Source: Winogradskyella haliclonae (GTDB taxonomy: Bacteria; Bacteroidota; Bacteroidia; Flavobacteriales; Flavobacteriaceae). From it: 64,000 nt of DNA. Location: the NCBI RefSeq assembly GCF_014635865.1, contig NZ_BMDQ01000001.1, positions 682,001 to 746,000 on the forward strand, written 5' to 3'. A model generated the notes under the pieces. That model was not told the origin of the DNA. It worked only from the letters and a program-made list of their open reading frames with translations, and did no database searches. Every line of letters starts with the position of its first letter. Position 1 is the stretch's first letter. The position numbers were made by a program, and so were the translations under genes. Positions 32,620 through 37,677 of this stretch are shown piece by piece.

Positions 32620-34131
32620 CTAAAACTTAAAACTTAAGCCTGTATATACTCCAATAAAAAATGGCCTAAAATCACCAGAGGTATTATTGAATGTATTTAT
32701 TTGATACTTGAACTTTGGTTCAAGATTTATATTAATCTTATCTGTTAAACTGTAATCAACACCTACACCAAAATTAGCGCTAAAGCTAGTGTCTCTAAGG
32801 TTATTGGCCTCTCCAATCTGTGTGCTTTGCCCGTTAACATCTGCAAAAATTTCATTTTCGTTAAGTAGTAATGTGCTAAAACCACCACTAAGGTTTACAC
32901 CTAGTTTTTTATCTACAAGGCGATACTCTACTTCAAGAGGAATTTCAATAAAACCAAAGCGTTGTTCAAGATTACCTGTTTGTAAAGTATTAATGGCTTC
33001 TGACACAGTATTATTACTAATTGAAGAGCGGCTTAGAAGCATTAATGATGCATGATTAACACTGTTGCTTAGTTTTACATTCTCTAGATTACCGTTTGAA
33101 GAGTTTGAAGCTCTAGATGAAAATGCATTATCTGATAAAGCAATAACATCATTTGTTGTATTATTAAAACTAACTTTGTTAATACCCGCAGTCACTTTAA
33201 GTCTGTTGTTTACAGCATAGCTTCCTTTAACGCCATAACTCATACTTATGTCACTACTAGTGTTATTATCATTAAACTGTGCATCAATTGAGGAGCCTTG
33301 ACCTAAAGAATTAAAATACACCGGCGCTACATTAGGCGAAATGCTCCACCGGCGTAGTTCTTTTTCTTCTTCTTCATTTATTTTCTTAGCTTCAGCAATA
33401 GCTTCTTCTATATCTTGTCCTTTTTCTTCTTTAGTCTCTTTTTCTTTTAAGATTTTAGAGACTTTATCTTCTCCGGCCTTACCATCTTCTTTTTCTGTTG
33501 ACGCAACTGTTGTAGCAGATTTAGTAGAAGAATTAATTATTTCATTAATCTCTGACTCTGATTTTATTTGTAAGTTATCAGTCGTGATAGACTTAGTGCT
33601 ATTAGTAGATGCTACAATAGTTTCTATAGTATTTTTATTATTGTTTTTAGAGATGAGATTTGTTGTGTTTTCTTTAGATTTTTCTGATGTTGAATTTTGA
33701 TAAGCGACTACGTCTTCTTTATTATTAGATTTATAAAGTTGTTTTTGCGAAGTTTTTTCTTCTTCATTTACTGTTGAAGATTCATTATTCTCATTTGAGT
33801 CAATTATGTCTTCTGAAGCTATTTGAGTACTGCCTTTTTGAGATGCATTATCAATATTGTTTTTCGTCGTATCTTCTACCTGTTGTTTGTCTATATCTAC
33901 TATAATTGGCGTGTCAGGATTATTATTGATTAGCATATTACCAACGGTAAACATGAGTACAATGGCAGCAGCAACACCACCTAATTGCCACCAAATAGGA
34001 ATAATACGTTGTTTTTTCTTCTTTTTCTCAAGTCTAGCTTCAATACCTTCCCAAACAGCATCGTTTGGCATAACGTCAAAGTCTTTAAACTTCTCTTGAA
34101 AGATACGGTCGATATGTTTTTTATCGCTCAT
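32620..34131 (-). CDS. Dual-membrane-spanning anti-sigma-like protein with outer-membrane beta-barrel
   Basis: 503 residues, 1 bp after the ECF sigma gene. Residues 1-45 are a cytoplasmic head (IDRIFQEKFKDFDVMPND, VWEGIEARLEKKKKKQR), 46-68 a membrane helix (IWWQLGGVAAAIVLMFTVGN), 69-258 a linker rich in Ser, Thr, Asn, Lys and Glu, and 261-503 a strand-rich barrel (RRWSISPNVAPVYFN, FGVGVDYSLTDKININLEPK) ending in Phe as outer-membrane proteins do. A head able to hold the sigma factor, joined through both membranes to a barrel, matches the dual membrane-spanning anti-sigma (Dma) proteins described in Bacteroides thetaiotaomicron. That the head binds this sigma is inference from gene order. Confidence 0.75.
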   Translation of the reverse strand: MSDKKHIDRIFQEKFKDFDVMPNDAVWEGIEARLEKKKKKQRIIPIWWQLGGVAAAIVLMFTVGNMLINNNPDTPIIVDIDKQQVEDTTKNNIDNASQKGSTQIASEDIIDSNENNESSTVNEEEKTSQKQLYKSNNKEDVVAYQNSTSEKSKENTTNLISKNNNKNTIETIVASTNSTKSITTDNLQIKSESEINEIINSSTKSATTVASTEKEDGKAGEDKVSKILKEKETKEEKGQDIEEAIAEAKKINEEEEKELRRWSISPNVAPVYFNSLGQGSSIDAQFNDNNTSSDISMSYGVKGSYAVNNRLKVTAGINKVSFNNTTNDVIALSDNAFSSRASNSSNGNLENVKLSNSVNHASLMLLSRSSISNNTVSEAINTLQTGNLEQRFGFIEIPLEVEYRLVDKKLGVNLSGGFSTLLLNENEIFADVNGQSTQIGEANNLRDTSFSANFGVGVDYSLTDKININLEPKFKYQINTFNNTSGDFRPFFIGVYTGLSFKF

Positions 34132-34132
34132 T

Positions 34133-34675
34133 TTATAATGATTGCGAATTTAAATTCGCTTTGTAATTTTCAATTTTTTGCTTTAAAATCTGTCTAGCTC
34201 TTGCGAGATTAGACTTAGAGGTTCCAGTTGAAATATCCAACATTTTACTTATTTCGTTATGCGAAAACCCATCCATTACATATAGGTTAAATACCAATCG
34301 ATACCTATCTGGCAAGTTTTGAATAATTTGAAGTAGAAAATCTAAATCTATTTCATCGTTATCAATCTCTATAGAAACATCTTCAATAGCATTTTCGTCA
34401 ATGATATTAAAAACGCCTATTTGTCTGTAGCGTTGCAAAGCAGTATTTATAGCTATGCGTTTCATCCAACCTTCAAAAGAACCTTTTTGCTTATACTGTT
34501 CTATTTTATTAAAAATAGTCACAAATGCATCTTGCAGATTATCCTCTGCTTCGACATAATTTTTGGAATACTTAAGGCATAGAGAAAATAATTTACTTGC
34601 ATATTGCTTGTATAACTGACCCTGTGCGTTAGCATCCTTTTCTTTACATTGATTAATGAGTTCTTTTAAACTCAC
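34133..34675 (-). CDS. ECF-type RNA polymerase sigma factor
   Basis: 180 residues from a GTG start. Region 2 (about 20-90) holds AEDNLQDAFVTIFNKIEQYK and SFEGWMKRIAINTALQRYR; region 4 (about 115-170) holds LPDRYRLVFNLYVMDGFSHN, EISKMLDISTGTSKSNLARA. Regions 1 and 3 are missing, as in ECF factors. It lies between a small lipoprotein gene (21 bp upstream) and the anti-sigma-like gene (1 bp downstream). I infer that it recognises the GCAACC-15-CATCT element found before this operon. Confidence 0.92.
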   Translation of the reverse strand: MSLKELINQCKEKDANAQGQLYKQYASKLFSLCLKYSKNYVEAEDNLQDAFVTIFNKIEQYKQKGSFEGWMKRIAINTALQRYRQIGVFNIIDENAIEDVSIEIDNDEIDLDFLLQIIQNLPDRYRLVFNLYVMDGFSHNEISKMLDISTGTSKSNLARARQILKQKIENYKANLNSQSL

Positions 34676-34696: not shown

Positions 34697-35104
34697 TTAT
34701 TGAATAACCGGTACTTCAACTATTAAATATTGGTCTTCCCCAGCTTGAGAGGTTCCCTGAAAAAATTGAAAAATATGTGTTTCAGCACTTGTTACAGAAA
34801 ATTCAAAAGAAACAGAGGCTTCAATACTAGATTGTGTACAGCTAATATTAGAATATACTGTATCAACTACAGCTATTGTCCTTGTATTTCCATTAGTTTG
34901 TGGGATAAAGCTATTAAATTCATAGCATCCATTAGGTCTTGTATAGTTTACAGTAATCACATGTGTATTACCAATTATAAACTCAGTAGGAACTTCAACA
35001 CTTTCTATAGGCATTATTTCTACTGTAAAGTCTTGTAATTCTTCACCACCTATATCACATGAGAAGAAAGTTATTAAGAGTATAAGTATTATTAGCTTTT
35101 TCAT
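34697..35104 (-). CDS. Small lipoprotein heading the ECF sigma operon
   Basis: 135 residues from the ATG at 35102-35104. The signal MKKLIILILLITFFSCD has Cys16. The mature part is strand-rich with two Cys in the middle (NGCYEF, NISCTQSS) that could form a disulfide, and reads like a single beta-sandwich. The open frame continues upstream to 35224 but would run through the sigma-type promoter and the recA terminator, so that extension is rejected. No known family recognised. As first gene of the operon it may be sensor, cofactor or target of the envelope response. Confidence 0.68.
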   Translation of the reverse strand: MKKLIILILLITFFSCDIGGEELQDFTVEIMPIESVEVPTEFIIGNTHVITVNYTRPNGCYEFNSFIPQTNGNTRTIAVVDTVYSNISCTQSSIEASVSFEFSVTSAETHIFQFFQGTSQAGEDQYLIVEVPVIQ

Positions 35105-35139: not shown

Positions 35140-35168
35140 AGATGCAAAAACTATAAAATGGTTGCGTC
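35140..35168 (-). promoter_or_regulatory. Putative ECF sigma promoter (copy 1, operon autoregulation)
   Basis: On the minus strand GACGCAACCATTTTA (35168-35154) leads, with GCAACC as -35, over a 15-bp spacer to CATCT (-10, 35144-35140). The start of transcription would be near 35133, about 30 bases before the lipoprotein ATG. An almost identical element is at 36284-36312. Neither part fits the housekeeping consensus. Confidence 0.68.
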
Positions 35169-35207: not shown

Positions 35208-36215
35208 TTAAGCCACATTTTCATTGACTTTTTCTCTTACTTTTTCTTCGAGTTCGTCCATTAATTCTGGGTTGTCTTTAATCAATGCTTTAACAGCATC
35301 TCGTCCTTGTCCCAATTTAGTGTCATCATAACTAAACCAAGATCCGCTTTTCTTTATAATATCATGCTCAACTGCTATATCTAAGATTTCACCAACTTTA
35401 GAAACGCCTTCTCCATACATAATATCAAATTCGGCCATTTTAAAAGGTGGCGCTACTTTATTTTTCACCACTTTAACTCTAGTTTTATTACCCATTACAG
35501 TGCTGTTGCTATCTTTAATTTGAGTAGAGCGTCTTATGTCTAGTCTTACAGAAGCATAAAATTTCAGTGCATTACCACCAGTAGTAGTTTCAGGATTACC
35601 AAACATTACACCAATTTTTTCACGTAATTGATTAATGAAAATCATTGTACAGTTGGTTTTGCTAATTGAGCCTGTTAATTTTCTTAAGGCTTGAGACATT
35701 AAACGTGCATGAAGCCCCATTTTAGAATCTCCCATTTCACCTTCAATTTCACTTTTTGGCGTTAAAGCCGCAACAGAATCTACAACAATAATATCAATTG
35801 CACCTGAACGCACTAAATTATCAGCAATTTCCAATGCTTGCTCACCATTATCTGGTTGAGATATAATCAGGTTTTCTAAATCTACACCTAGTTTTTCCGC
35901 ATAGAAACGATCAAAAGCATGTTCTGCATCAATAAATGCAGCAATACCTCCAGCTTTTTGAGCTTCAGCAATAGCATGAAGGGTCAGTGTTGTTTTACCC
36001 GATGATTCAGGACCGTATATTTCTATAACTCTTCCTCGAGGATATCCGCCAACACCCAAAGCAATATCTAAACCAAGTGAACCAGATGATATTGCATCGA
36101 CATCTTCAATCGCTTGATCACTCATTTTCATTACGGTGCCTTTGCCATAGGCCTTATCTAGCTTGTCTAAAGTTAATTTTAAAGCTTTTAATTTTGCGTC
36201 TTTTTCACTACTCAT
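35208..36215 (-). CDS. recA: Recombinase RecA
   Basis: 335 residues. Walker A is GPESSGKTT (about 68-76), Walker [14 protein letters not shown] (about 141), loop 2 region [20 protein letters not shown] (about 193-212). It makes filaments on single-stranded DNA for strand exchange and SOS co-proteolysis. It is transcribed alone, between its own promoter and terminator. I see no LexA-type box. Confidence 0.98.
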
Positions 36216-36247
36216 TTATTCTAAATTTTCTCTATTAATCGTGACGA

Positions 36248-36278
36248 TAAAAATAACACTTCTTTTAAGAGATTACAA
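36248..36278 (-). promoter_or_regulatory. recA promoter
   Basis: On the minus strand TTG (36278-36276), 20 bp, TATTTTTA (36255-36248), one base from TAnnTTTG. Transcription would start about 25-30 bases before the recA ATG. It is back to back with the ECF-type promoter at 36284-36312. Confidence 0.5.
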
Positions 36279-36283
36279 TTTAC

Positions 36284-36312
36284 GACGCAACCATTTTACA
36301 CTTTTTACATCT
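36284..36312 (+). promoter_or_regulatory. Putative ECF sigma promoter (copy 2, drives the small intergenic unit)
   Basis: GACGCAACCATTTTA (36284-36298) with GCAACC at 36287-36292, a 15-bp spacer and CATCT at 36308-36312. It shares a run of 15 bases, the TTTTT block and the -10 with copy 1, and CTTAA after it. It points rightwards into the space before trhO; transcription would start near 36319. Confidence 0.65.
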
Positions 36313-36318
36313 ACTTAA

Positions 36319-36553
36319 TGAAAAAGGAAATAATTGCTATGAATTAGCTTAAGGTTTTAGGTAAAATGAAATTTTTAGGAAAAATTGTTCTCAGTAAAAC
36401 TTTAGGTGAGACAACAGCCGTCTTCTTATTCTGCTGTTGTAAAGCCGATGGAGGTTAGCTCGTTATAATATGATTTAATTTAAAAAAAATTAATATTAAT
36501 AACGAGTTAGTCCTCAAAAAAGCACTTTGGTAAAAATCAAAGTGCTTTTTTCG
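36319..36553 (+). ncRNA. Candidate sigma-controlled small RNA / leader transcript
   Basis: A unit of about 235 nt bounded by the ECF-type promoter and a perfect terminator. It holds a 30-codon ORF and two hairpins. Hairpin A: ACAACAGC (36411-36418) with GCTGTTGT (36433-36440). Hairpin B: CTCGTTAT (36459-36466) with ATAACGAG (36499-36506), extended by GAGG/CCTC (36451-36454, 36512-36515). The gene after it, trhO, has its own -7 element beyond the terminator. It may act as a small RNA, as the message of a peptide, or as a leader of trhO. All of this is inference from sequence. Confidence 0.5.
36366..36458 (+). CDS. 30-residue peptide ORF ending in a triple-cysteine motif
   Basis: ATG at 36366 to TAG at 36456-36458 encodes 30 residues: MKFLGKIVLSKTL, then GETTAVFLFCCCKADGG. 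Three Cys codons (TGC TGT TGT, 36432-36440) lie in the 3' arm of hairpin A, and the stop codon lies at the foot of hairpin B. Clustered Cys codons are known from leader peptides that sense cysteine supply by ribosome stalling (poly-Cys leader ORFs in mycobacteria). The next gene is a rhodanese-type protein, which fits such a role, but that gene also seems to have its own promoter. A free-standing peptide is the alternative. I do not recognise a named family. Confidence 0.5.
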   Translation: MKFLGKIVLSKTLGETTAVFLFCCCKADGG

Positions 36554-36554
36554 C
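36516..36554 (+). terminator. Rho-independent terminator of the small unit
   Basis: AAAAAAGCACTTTG (36516-36529) pairs perfectly with CAAAGTGCTTTTTT (36538-36551) around an eight-base loop. Confidence 0.9.
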
Positions 36555-36563
36555 TTAAAAAAT

Positions 36564-36571
36564 TACCTTTG
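36564..36571 (+). promoter_or_regulatory. -7 promoter element TACCTTTG before trhO
   Basis: Exact TAnnTTTG match, 41 bp before the trhO ATG and just after the terminator. The -33 position is T-rich without a TTG. Confidence 0.5.
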
Positions 36572-36612
36572 CAATTGAAAATTCAATCTTTAACCTTAAA
36601 AATTAGTATAGC

Positions 36613-37677
36613 ATGCAACTGTACAATAACTTAAGCGGTAAAGAAAGGGCAGAACTTATTAAAAAAGCAGGCAAAGACCGGCTTACGATCTCTTTCTACA
36701 AATACGCCAAAATCGGAAACCCCGAACTTTTTAGAAATCATATTTTTATCAACTGGAATGATATGGACGTTCTAGGAAGAATATATGTTGCTCACGAAGG
36801 TATTAATGCGCAATTATCTGTTCCGGCGGATAACTTTGACGTGTTTAAAAGTCATTTAGATTCAATCATTTTTTTAGAAAATGTAAGACTAAATATTGCT
36901 GTTGAGCATGATAATTTTGCATTTTTAAAGCTAAAAGTGAAAGTGCGAAATAAAATTGTAGCTGATGGCTTAAATGATGAAACTTTCGATGTTACGGACA
37001 AAGGGATTCATGTTAATGCAGAAAAGTTCAATCAACTTATAGAGGATCCAGATGCTGTTTTGGTCGATATGCGCAATCACTACGAAAGTGAAATAGGACA
37101 TTTTAAAAATGCGATAACACCAGATGTAGACACATTTAGAGAATCCTTAGATTTAATAGAAGAAGACTTACGCGAGCACAAAGAAGATAAGAAATTAGTC
37201 ATGTATTGCACGGGCGGCATACGATGCGAAAAAGCAAGTGCTTATTACAAACACAAAGGGTTTAAAAATGTATTTCAGCTAGAAGGCGGCATTATTAATT
37301 ACGTACGCCAAATTGAAGCTGAAGGTTTAGAAAATAAATTTATAGGAAAGAACTTTGTATTTGATCAACGGCGTTCTGAAAGAATTTCGGATGATGTAAT
37401 TGCAAATTGTCACCAATGTGGTGAGCCAGCAGATATGCATACTAACTGTATAAATGAAGCCTGTCATCTATTGTTTATACAATGCGATAGCTGTAAAGAA
37501 AAAATGAATAATTGCTGCTCTACCAACTGTATGGAAATTATCAAGTTGCCATACGAAGAGCAAAAAGAATTACGCAAAGGTCAAGGTAATAGTAACGACA
37601 TTTTTAAAAAGGGTCGAGCGGACCATCTACCCTACAAAAAAGATTTACGAAATATTTTCGATACACTAAACAAATAA
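36613..37677 (+). CDS. trhO: tRNA uridine(34) hydroxylase, rhodanese family
   Basis: 354 residues. The N-terminal acylphosphatase-like part (about 1-110) carries FINWNDMDVLGRIYVAHEGI and NAQLSVP; the rhodanese domain (about 135-240) has active-site Cys199 in YCTGGIRCEKASAYY; the C-terminal part binds metal through many Cys (CHQCGEP, CINEACH, CDSCKEKMNNCCSTNC). Members of the TrhO (YceA) family hydroxylate U34 of tRNA with prephenate-derived or oxygen-dependent chemistry. Bacteroidota members are usually near this length. A terminator follows. Confidence 0.88.
   Translation: MQLYNNLSGKERAELIKKAGKDRLTISFYKYAKIGNPELFRNHIFINWNDMDVLGRIYVAHEGINAQLSVPADNFDVFKSHLDSIIFLENVRLNIAVEHDNFAFLKLKVKVRNKIVADGLNDETFDVTDKGIHVNAEKFNQLIEDPDAVLVDMRNHYESEIGHFKNAITPDVDTFRESLDLIEEDLREHKEDKKLVMYCTGGIRCEKASAYYKHKGFKNVFQLEGGIINYVRQIEAEGLENKFIGKNFVFDQRRSERISDDVIANCHQCGEPADMHTNCINEACHLLFIQCDSCKEKMNNCCSTNCMEIIKLPYEEQKELRKGQGNSNDIFKKGRADHLPYKKDLRNIFDTLNK

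Follow-up and report, generated by a model that had tools for sequence, protein, structure and literature searches.

The window analysed here is a 64,000-nucleotide stretch of the Winogradskyella haliclonae genome (contig NZ_BMDQ01000001.1, positions 682,001 to 746,000), and the unit that we study lies within it between recA, which is read divergently, and trhO (Table 1). An ECF-type promoter leads into a conserved 5' element, a 30-codon open reading frame (ORF), two hairpins and an intrinsic terminator, and the transcript would start near 36318. Past recA, a second ECF-type promoter precedes an operon that holds a lipoprotein-like gene, an ECF sigma factor and a 503-aa protein. The preliminary description of this DNA had reported the ORF, both hairpins and the perfect terminator, with trhO as the next gene, and all are found where it placed them; its further statement that the stop codon lies in hairpin B holds for the extended stem, within which the codon falls, but the TAG (36456-36458) only abuts the CTCGTTAT arm. 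The present analysis adds three things: the ECF promoter, the sigma operon past recA, and the observation that most Winogradskyella have lost the ORF.

Table 1. Features of the unit and of its surroundings, in window coordinates.
Feature	Position	Strand	Detail
503-aa protein, third gene of the sigma operon	32620..34131	-	OMP_b-brl_2 27.2 bits (cut-off 27), OmpA_membrane 22.2 (21)
ECF sigma factor	34133..34675	-	Sigma70_r2 54.8 bits, Sigma70_r4_2 52 bits; TIGR02937 85.7 bits (cut-off 42.9)
First sigma-operon gene, lipoprotein-like	34697..35104	-	MKKLIILILLITFFSCDIGG; named by eye
Second ECF-type promoter, before the sigma operon	35140..35165	-	GCAACCATTTTATAGTTTTTGCATCT
recA	35208..36215	-	neighbour between both ECF-type promoters; named from sequence
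ECF-type promoter of the unit	36287..36312	+	-35 GCAACC, 15-nt spacer, -10 CATCT
Conserved 5' element of the predicted transcript	36320..36343	+	GAAAAAGGAAATAATTGCTATGAA
Micro-ORF ATG AAT TAG	36339..36347	+	its ATG is the peptide's own start codon in relatives, e.g. L077, L179, L184
30-codon ORF	36366..36458	+	encodes MKFLGKIVLSKTLGETTAVFLFCCCKADGG; member of a conserved small-peptide family
Hairpin A, within the ORF	36411..36440	+	arms ACAACAGC 36411-36418 / GCTGTTGT 36433-36440
Hairpin B, stop codon inside	36450..36515	+	arms CTCGTTAT 36459-36466 / ATAACGAG 36499-36506; 3' arm ATAACGAGTTAGTCC
Intrinsic terminator	36516..36551	+	AAAAAAGCACTTTG 36516-36529 / CAAAGTGCTTTTTT 36538-36551; perfect stem of 14 bp, with a T-run
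trhO's own -7 box, housekeeping-type: TACCTTTG	36564..36571	+	assigned by consensus
trhO, tRNA uridine(34) hydroxylase	36613..37677	+	NF001133 264.9 bits (cut-off 170); neighbour, outside the predicted transcript

The 271-nt stretch 36300-36570 has a predicted fold of -72.2 kcal/mol, lower than every one of 200 dinucleotide shuffles, which fold at -45.3 +/- 4.1 (z -6.57). An Rfam scan of the window returned no family at its gathering score, and a permissive scan of 36200-36650 listed 20 matches, every one below its gathering score; a consensus promoter and terminator scan missed both the ECF site and the unit's terminator. When the unit is compared by BLASTN with 60 relatives (37 of the genus), most or all of it is matched in 6 genomes, its own and 5 others, and in the other 31 genomes of the genus the match covers mainly the first 40-55 nt, with the terminator region as well in some. 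This well-matched 5' segment holds the putative promoter and the first part of the predicted transcript. With recurrence in 5 other genomes of the genus, and of the peptide in many genera, the unit is, on comparative grounds, beyond chance.

We use a profile of 29 peptides, the window's own included, to follow the peptide through a family sample of 397 genomes from 237 genera at E <= 0.01. The profile matches 84 genomes and 57 genera, with a best E of 1.3e-15, or 79 genomes and 53 genera without the 5 genomes that rest on partial matches alone (8 partial places with E from 1e-4 to 0.01 were left out: G412, G441, G244, G343, G133, a second in G325 and two in G189). At 7 of the 79 places retained the peptide is the same as one of the profile rows, and of the 99 distinct peptides 70 had no part in building the profile; the window peptide scores E 3.5e-13, but is itself a profile row. 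At loci fetched with the sigma protein, a 30-residue ORF that ends as in the window follows the divergent promoter in Mesonia, Salinimicrobium, Gillisia, Aquimarina, Psychroflexus, Salegentibacter, Haloflavibacter and Lacinutrix, among other genera. In an order sample of 246 genomes, an unstated share of them from outside the family, there are 5 matches at E <= 0.001, all within Flavobacteriaceae.

The sequence of the peptide is strongly patterned. Its ending follows the form [K/R]-x-[D/E]-G-G, with Gly-Gly in 98 of the 99 distinct peptides, Asp or Glu before it in all 99, and Lys or Arg two positions before that in 95, and its length is exactly 30 residues in 85/99 (these statistics omit lengths outside 27-31 residues, such as the 35 residues of L076, where the stop codon is lost). 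The first position lacks ATG at 7 of 110 loci (111 were scored, and L113, at 15 bits, was left out), and carries TTG or GTG where the codon is seen. Among pairs of distinct ORFs that differ at 5-20 nt, which are not independent of each other, dN is smaller than dS in 219/223 and smaller than half of dS in 188/223. The window ORF compared with L004 gives dN 0.11 and dS 0.98, and two Salinimicrobium loci (L109 and L152) give 0.06 and 0.74; on the other side stand two Mesonia loci (L087 and L095) with 0.15 and 0.14, and the window ORF against its nearest relatives (L002, L060, L074) with dN 0.07 and dS 0.08-0.15. Measured by these codon comparisons, the peptide is real and under purifying selection. 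Among the checks that the preliminary description had proposed were those on peptide conservation in other Flavobacteriaceae, on synonymous substitution and on RNA covariation, and the first two come out in its favour. It had also drawn attention to the three consecutive Cys of the window peptide; CCC occurs in only 2 of the 99 distinct peptides, and this cluster is a local oddity. Cys occurs once or not at all in 68/99 and is missing altogether in 6/99.

Now we consider the promoter. The pattern GCAACC-N14..16-CATCT has 2 matches in the window where 0.06 are expected, and none of 100 shuffles reaches 2. An extended form of the pattern finds only 2 perfect sites in the whole 3.05-Mb genome, both of them flanking recA; the third site of the genome has 3 mismatches, a laxity at which the reversed-pattern control also gives 1 match. 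Because these are the sole perfect sites in the genome, one small regulon seems to have the sigma operon and the RNA at its core. The promoter of the unit matches that of the sigma factor's own operon, and we infer that the ECF sigma factor regulates both.

The same association holds across the family. At 106 of the 110 peptide loci the upstream 500 nt hold a loosely defined ECF site, at a distance of 13-254 nt, and in control stretches of 500 nt it is found in 12/5500 shuffled and 5/110 reversed sequences. The 4 loci at which this search finds none are L089, L092, L200 (where a degenerate site is visible) and L251. Since L089 and L092, both Salegentibacter, keep the peptide, its control may have changed there.

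A second sample was fetched with the sigma protein, and 80 loci of 548 were kept. The loose ECF-like site is present within 1300 nt before the sigma gene at 72 of these 80, and recA is adjacent at 61, of which 42 have the divergent site, 31 the peptide and 29 both. On the sigma-protein tree of these 61 loci, the presence or absence of the peptide needs at least 8 changes, 5 of them forced by well-supported branches, and it has therefore been gained or lost repeatedly; part of its absence is a matter of detection, as at L088 (Aquimarina), where a relative of the peptide is visible below the threshold. At four Croceivirga- or Croceitalea-like loci (L135, L144, L149, L151) the divergent ECF-type site past recA is kept with the peptide unrecognisable, and by eye a hairpin with a T-run lies downstream.

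What else the sigma factor might read can be gauged within the genus, where a looser pattern with up to 2 mismatches has matches in 68/68 genomes, 379 in total by our count, compared with 22 for the reversed control; the control matches fall in 17 of the 68 genomes, so that the pattern also matches by chance. We read 20 stretches away from recA (L153-L172), made up of 19 full matches among the matches listed and one site of the window's own genome with 1 mismatch, and named the genes at all 20 by eye. At 12 of the 20 the next gene is TonB-receptor-like, of one type, with a leader of roughly 170-180 nt from the -35; at the remaining 8 it is exported-, lipoprotein- or barrel-like. Genes of these kinds behind the sites point to a role of the sigma factor in the envelope, and the ECF-type sites probably mark an envelope regulon.

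Two irregular arrangements of the promoter pattern appear among the matches listed. In 3 genomes two same-strand copies lie 1-2 kb apart beside the unit, suggesting duplication (G034:C1:1085257 and 1086962; G463:C11:608721 and 610388; G029:C1:414548 and 415603). In 5 others (G021, G005, G017, G013, G461) about 5.3 kb separates the two divergent matches in place of 1.1 kb, and from this spacing genes have seemingly been inserted between them.

Of the other two genes of the sigma operon, the lipoprotein-like one has no Pfam or NCBIfam match. The 503-aa protein starts with an N-terminal segment and ends in a C-terminal beta-barrel, and by eye it has a single probable membrane span; from gene order it is presumed to be the anti-sigma factor or sensor. 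It seems to combine a cytosolic start, a membrane span and an outer-membrane-type barrel in one chain, and may be a one-piece sensor and anti-sigma factor that reaches across both membranes.

We now turn to the RNA. For hairpin A we use 80 distinct ORFs of exactly 93 nt, and here, as in all swap and shuffle statistics that follow, shared descent is ignored. The 11 pairs of the hairpin are formed in 80.2% of cells, as compared with 72.0% when 3' arms are swapped among species and 74.6% when synonymous codons are shuffled with the proteins held fixed, and in neither case is any of 1000 trials as high; sliding the partners by 1 to 3 columns leaves 26-56% paired. The energies tell the same story, with a mean of -13.45 for the natural sequences and -9.59 +/- 0.32 for 200 synonymous shuffles. 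In the partner swap, hairpin A scores -12.56 kcal/mol with its own arms and -8.55 with swapped ones, the terminator -9.21 and -5.39, and hairpin B -13.13 and -10.55, with 0/2000 swaps as low for each of the three; a control pair of ORF segments gives -2.45 and -2.19 (54/2000). Although hairpin A lies within the ORF, its co-variation exceeds what keeping the protein would require, and the covariation check is thus answered positively as well. The terminator stem is kept and co-varies in relatives, and the column alignment of hairpin B (69 sequences) shows mainly one-sided changes, with two-sided change at 1 of 8 consensus pairs. Alignment A4 took in 69 of 98 units and A3 37 of 42, and 99 distinct units with a site served for the sequence survey. 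By these tests the RNA features are selected independently of the protein, and a role in cis would also fit.

A further hairpin near the 5' end, P1, was considered as a core part and set aside: it has no consensus pair, and in ORF-less copies 1116/2000 swaps are as low. Among units with a long leader (N 43) it does respond to the partner swap.

The clearest view of the RNA without its peptide comes from the genus itself. The end of the promoter (-10) together with the 5' element, at up to 3 mismatches, is found in 60 of 68 Winogradskyella genomes and in none of the reversed-pattern controls, and the peptide profile at E <= 0.01 matches 11/68 genomes, 8 strongly (E below 1e-9) and 3 in a weak or partial way. 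One of the weak matches, G473, has an intact 30-codon ORF ending KAEDG, as in L075; a strong one, G026 (L005, L076), has lost the stop, and its frame runs five codons longer. Counting the 8 strong matches and G473, the ORF is present in some form in at least 9 of the 68 genomes. Among 40 copies of the unit that we read, 7 have the ORF and none of the other 33 has an ORF with a DGG-type ending; a few of these ORF-less copies (L014, L048) still hold an ATG towards the upstream end of the frame. After 13 of the 33 were omitted for missing anchors or odd length, 19 distinct copies remain, and in these hairpin A scores -9.35 with its own partners and -6.90 with swapped ones (0/2000, N 19); the 3' hairpin gives a weaker swap signal (92/2000). 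Because promoter, 5' element, hairpin and terminator outlast the loss of the ORF, a function at the level of the RNA is the best explanation. That the ORF might be incidental, broken as it is in most Winogradskyella, was a candidate view that ORFs with the same ending at the sigma loci of other genera overturned.

The 5' element deserves a separate word. When its genus form, with the -10, is scanned against the family it is matched in 3/397 genomes, all of the genus, and the exact form is therefore a genus feature; related forms (GGGAAA..TTGCTATGAAA) are seen in other genera. At L077, L179 and L184 the element stands directly before the start of the peptide, and as read from this placement it may serve the start of translation and not be a seed for pairing.

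Our preferred reading, to which we give a probability of roughly 0.55, is that the unit encodes an ECF-controlled dual-function RNA, at once the message for the peptide and a structured RNA with a role of its own. Since the peptide is conserved in many genera and lost elsewhere with the RNA kept, the RNA is probably both, and it probably belongs to an envelope response. In the course of events that we infer, an active envelope-linked ECF system would have the sigma factor make its own operon and, from the far side of recA, the free-standing RNA of about 235 nt. That RNA would serve as a small mRNA for the 30-residue, basic-then-hydrophobic peptide, and its structured part (the 5' element, hairpin A overlapping the ORF, hairpin B at the stop codon, and the terminator) would have its own role; it would probably adjust messages, perhaps those of outer-membrane proteins, by pairing with them, and the peptide would act at or in the membrane in the same response. 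The preliminary description had leaned to a free small RNA or a secreted or modified peptide, as separate options. Part of the first survives in the conserved structure of a separate, putatively ECF-driven unit, and part of the second in the purifying selection on the peptide.

The main rival is a plain small mRNA with cis structures. The peptide alone would matter, the hairpins would control its translation and the stability of the RNA in cis, and the ORF-less copies would be relics. This is unlikely in our estimate, if a serious competitor: it sits well with a peptide that is conserved across many genera and whose dN is for the most part far smaller than its dS, with a 5' element that meets the peptide start in some relatives, and with a stop codon covered by hairpin B. 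The ORF-less majority of the genus, however, keeps the 5' element (60/68) and a co-varying hairpin A, and this counts against it; the keeping of hairpin A beyond the protein's needs does so too, though a cis role could explain that as well.

There is also a bolder form of the dual-function reading, which we regard as doubtful. Here about 30 nt would be under double selection, for a regulatory hairpin and for the codons of the peptide with its Gly-Gly end. In the membrane the peptide would feed back on the sigma factor and its beta-barrel anti-sigma, the RNA would silence outer-membrane messages, and lineages could lose the peptide but retain the RNA side.

The composition of the peptide allows another interpretation, that of a miniature lipoprotein, in which a signal-peptide-like stretch is cut to leave a lipidated hexapeptide, C-K/R-x-D-G-G, that acts as a signal or an envelope effector. 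The starts of Bacteroidetes lipoproteins resemble the N-terminal layout of the peptide. Its N-terminus carries a charge of +2 or +3 in 96/99, its core has no charged residue or just one in 89/99, and a Cys stands sixth from the end in 85/99 distinct peptides. In the other 14, though, this Cys is replaced by S, F, A, Y or T, so there is no conserved lipobox with an invariant Cys; the residue that precedes this position is N or S in 82/99. The Cys codon, moreover, is part of the hairpin A stem, and some of its conservation may be due to that. We consider this quite improbable.

Two further readings are more improbable still. The unit could be an ECF-dependent small RNA of the RybB or MicA kind (neither is known to encode a peptide), without any coding role and with an incidental ORF; a 5' element that is kept across the genus as the body diverges, and an ORF lost in most Winogradskyella, are what such an RNA would show, but profile matches down to E 1.3e-15 in other genera, the excess of dS over dN and the nearly invariant Gly-Gly end speak against it. 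Equally remote is a type I toxin-antitoxin system, in which a membrane-active peptide is held in check by an antisense RNA. The peptide is short and basic-hydrophobic, and its control is presumably by stress; its core is only mildly hydrophobic, however, with a mean Kyte-Doolittle value of 1.07, and only 4/99 units carry a -7 box in antisense orientation (CAAANNTA as read on the + strand), a count that covers this promoter type only.

The placement of the unit bears on the last alternative. It is divergent to a relative of recA in 102/102 copies distinct by their first 90 nt, and trhO lies downstream in 90 of these, with 12/102 having no trhO in the stretch examined. A box of the form TAnnTTTG stands between the unit and trhO in 90/90, as compared with 459/4500 shuffles (about 10%) and 2/90 reversed strings, which supports the earlier view that TACCTTTG after the terminator is a sign against a trhO leader. 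A Cys-codon attenuation leader for trhO, the first option of the preliminary description, has the three Cys codons of the window copy and the usual presence of trhO in its favour but fails, and is next to negligible, because both of the defining features that were examined are missing, in that there is no conserved run of Cys codons (CCC in 2/99, one Cys or none in 68/99) and the supposedly controlled gene has a promoter-like box of its own; in 12/102 units it is also absent from the stretch examined. As a separate observation, the leader and start of trhO (36591-36630, TTAACCTTAAAAATTAGTATAGCATGCAACTG) are nearly unchanged in the flanks of many relatives, more so than would be expected of a plain leader.

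It is useful to set the dual-function reading beside systems that are already known. SgrS/SgrT of enteric bacteria (compare PMC4021124) is likewise a stress-induced RNA with a short ORF and conserved RNA features; the phylum and the regulator are different, and in the present unit hairpin A overlaps the ORF itself. VcdRP of Vibrio cholerae (PMC8672173) also has two functions, for it encodes a peptide of 29 residues and contains a segment that base pairs. CRP represses it, and its effects are on carbon metabolism, where this unit is linked to an ECF sigma factor. RybB and MicA (PMC1804206) are small RNAs made by the envelope-stress ECF sigma factor Sigma-E, and the likeness lies in the control by sigma; pairing with outer-membrane messages is putative for this unit. 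By analogy, then, the RNA would resemble SgrS and VcdRP in its working and the Sigma-E small RNAs in its control, with pairing in trans as a putative feature.

Nearer in phylogeny, the Rfp small RNAs of Flavobacterium psychrophilum (e.g. Rfp18) are structured, independent transcripts in Flavobacteriaceae (PMC9723704). The ECF-like motif SM6 of that study has a CGT -10 box, as opposed to the CATCT of this unit, and the word recA is absent from the main text of the paper. Among our own loci, three with Flavobacterium in their titles (L100, L113, L127) have a divergent ECF site in 0/3. In the openly licensed literature we recognised no description of this RNA, peptide or promoter, nor any Bacteroidota case of a small RNA that is under ECF control and encodes a conserved peptide.

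What emerges is an RNA and peptide family in at least 53 of the 237 sampled genera, tied to a sigma operon that is seemingly self-regulated. Because versions with and without the ORF occur naturally in one genus, the role of the RNA without its peptide can be asked about directly, and so can the question of how a protein-coding stretch doubles as a conserved structure.
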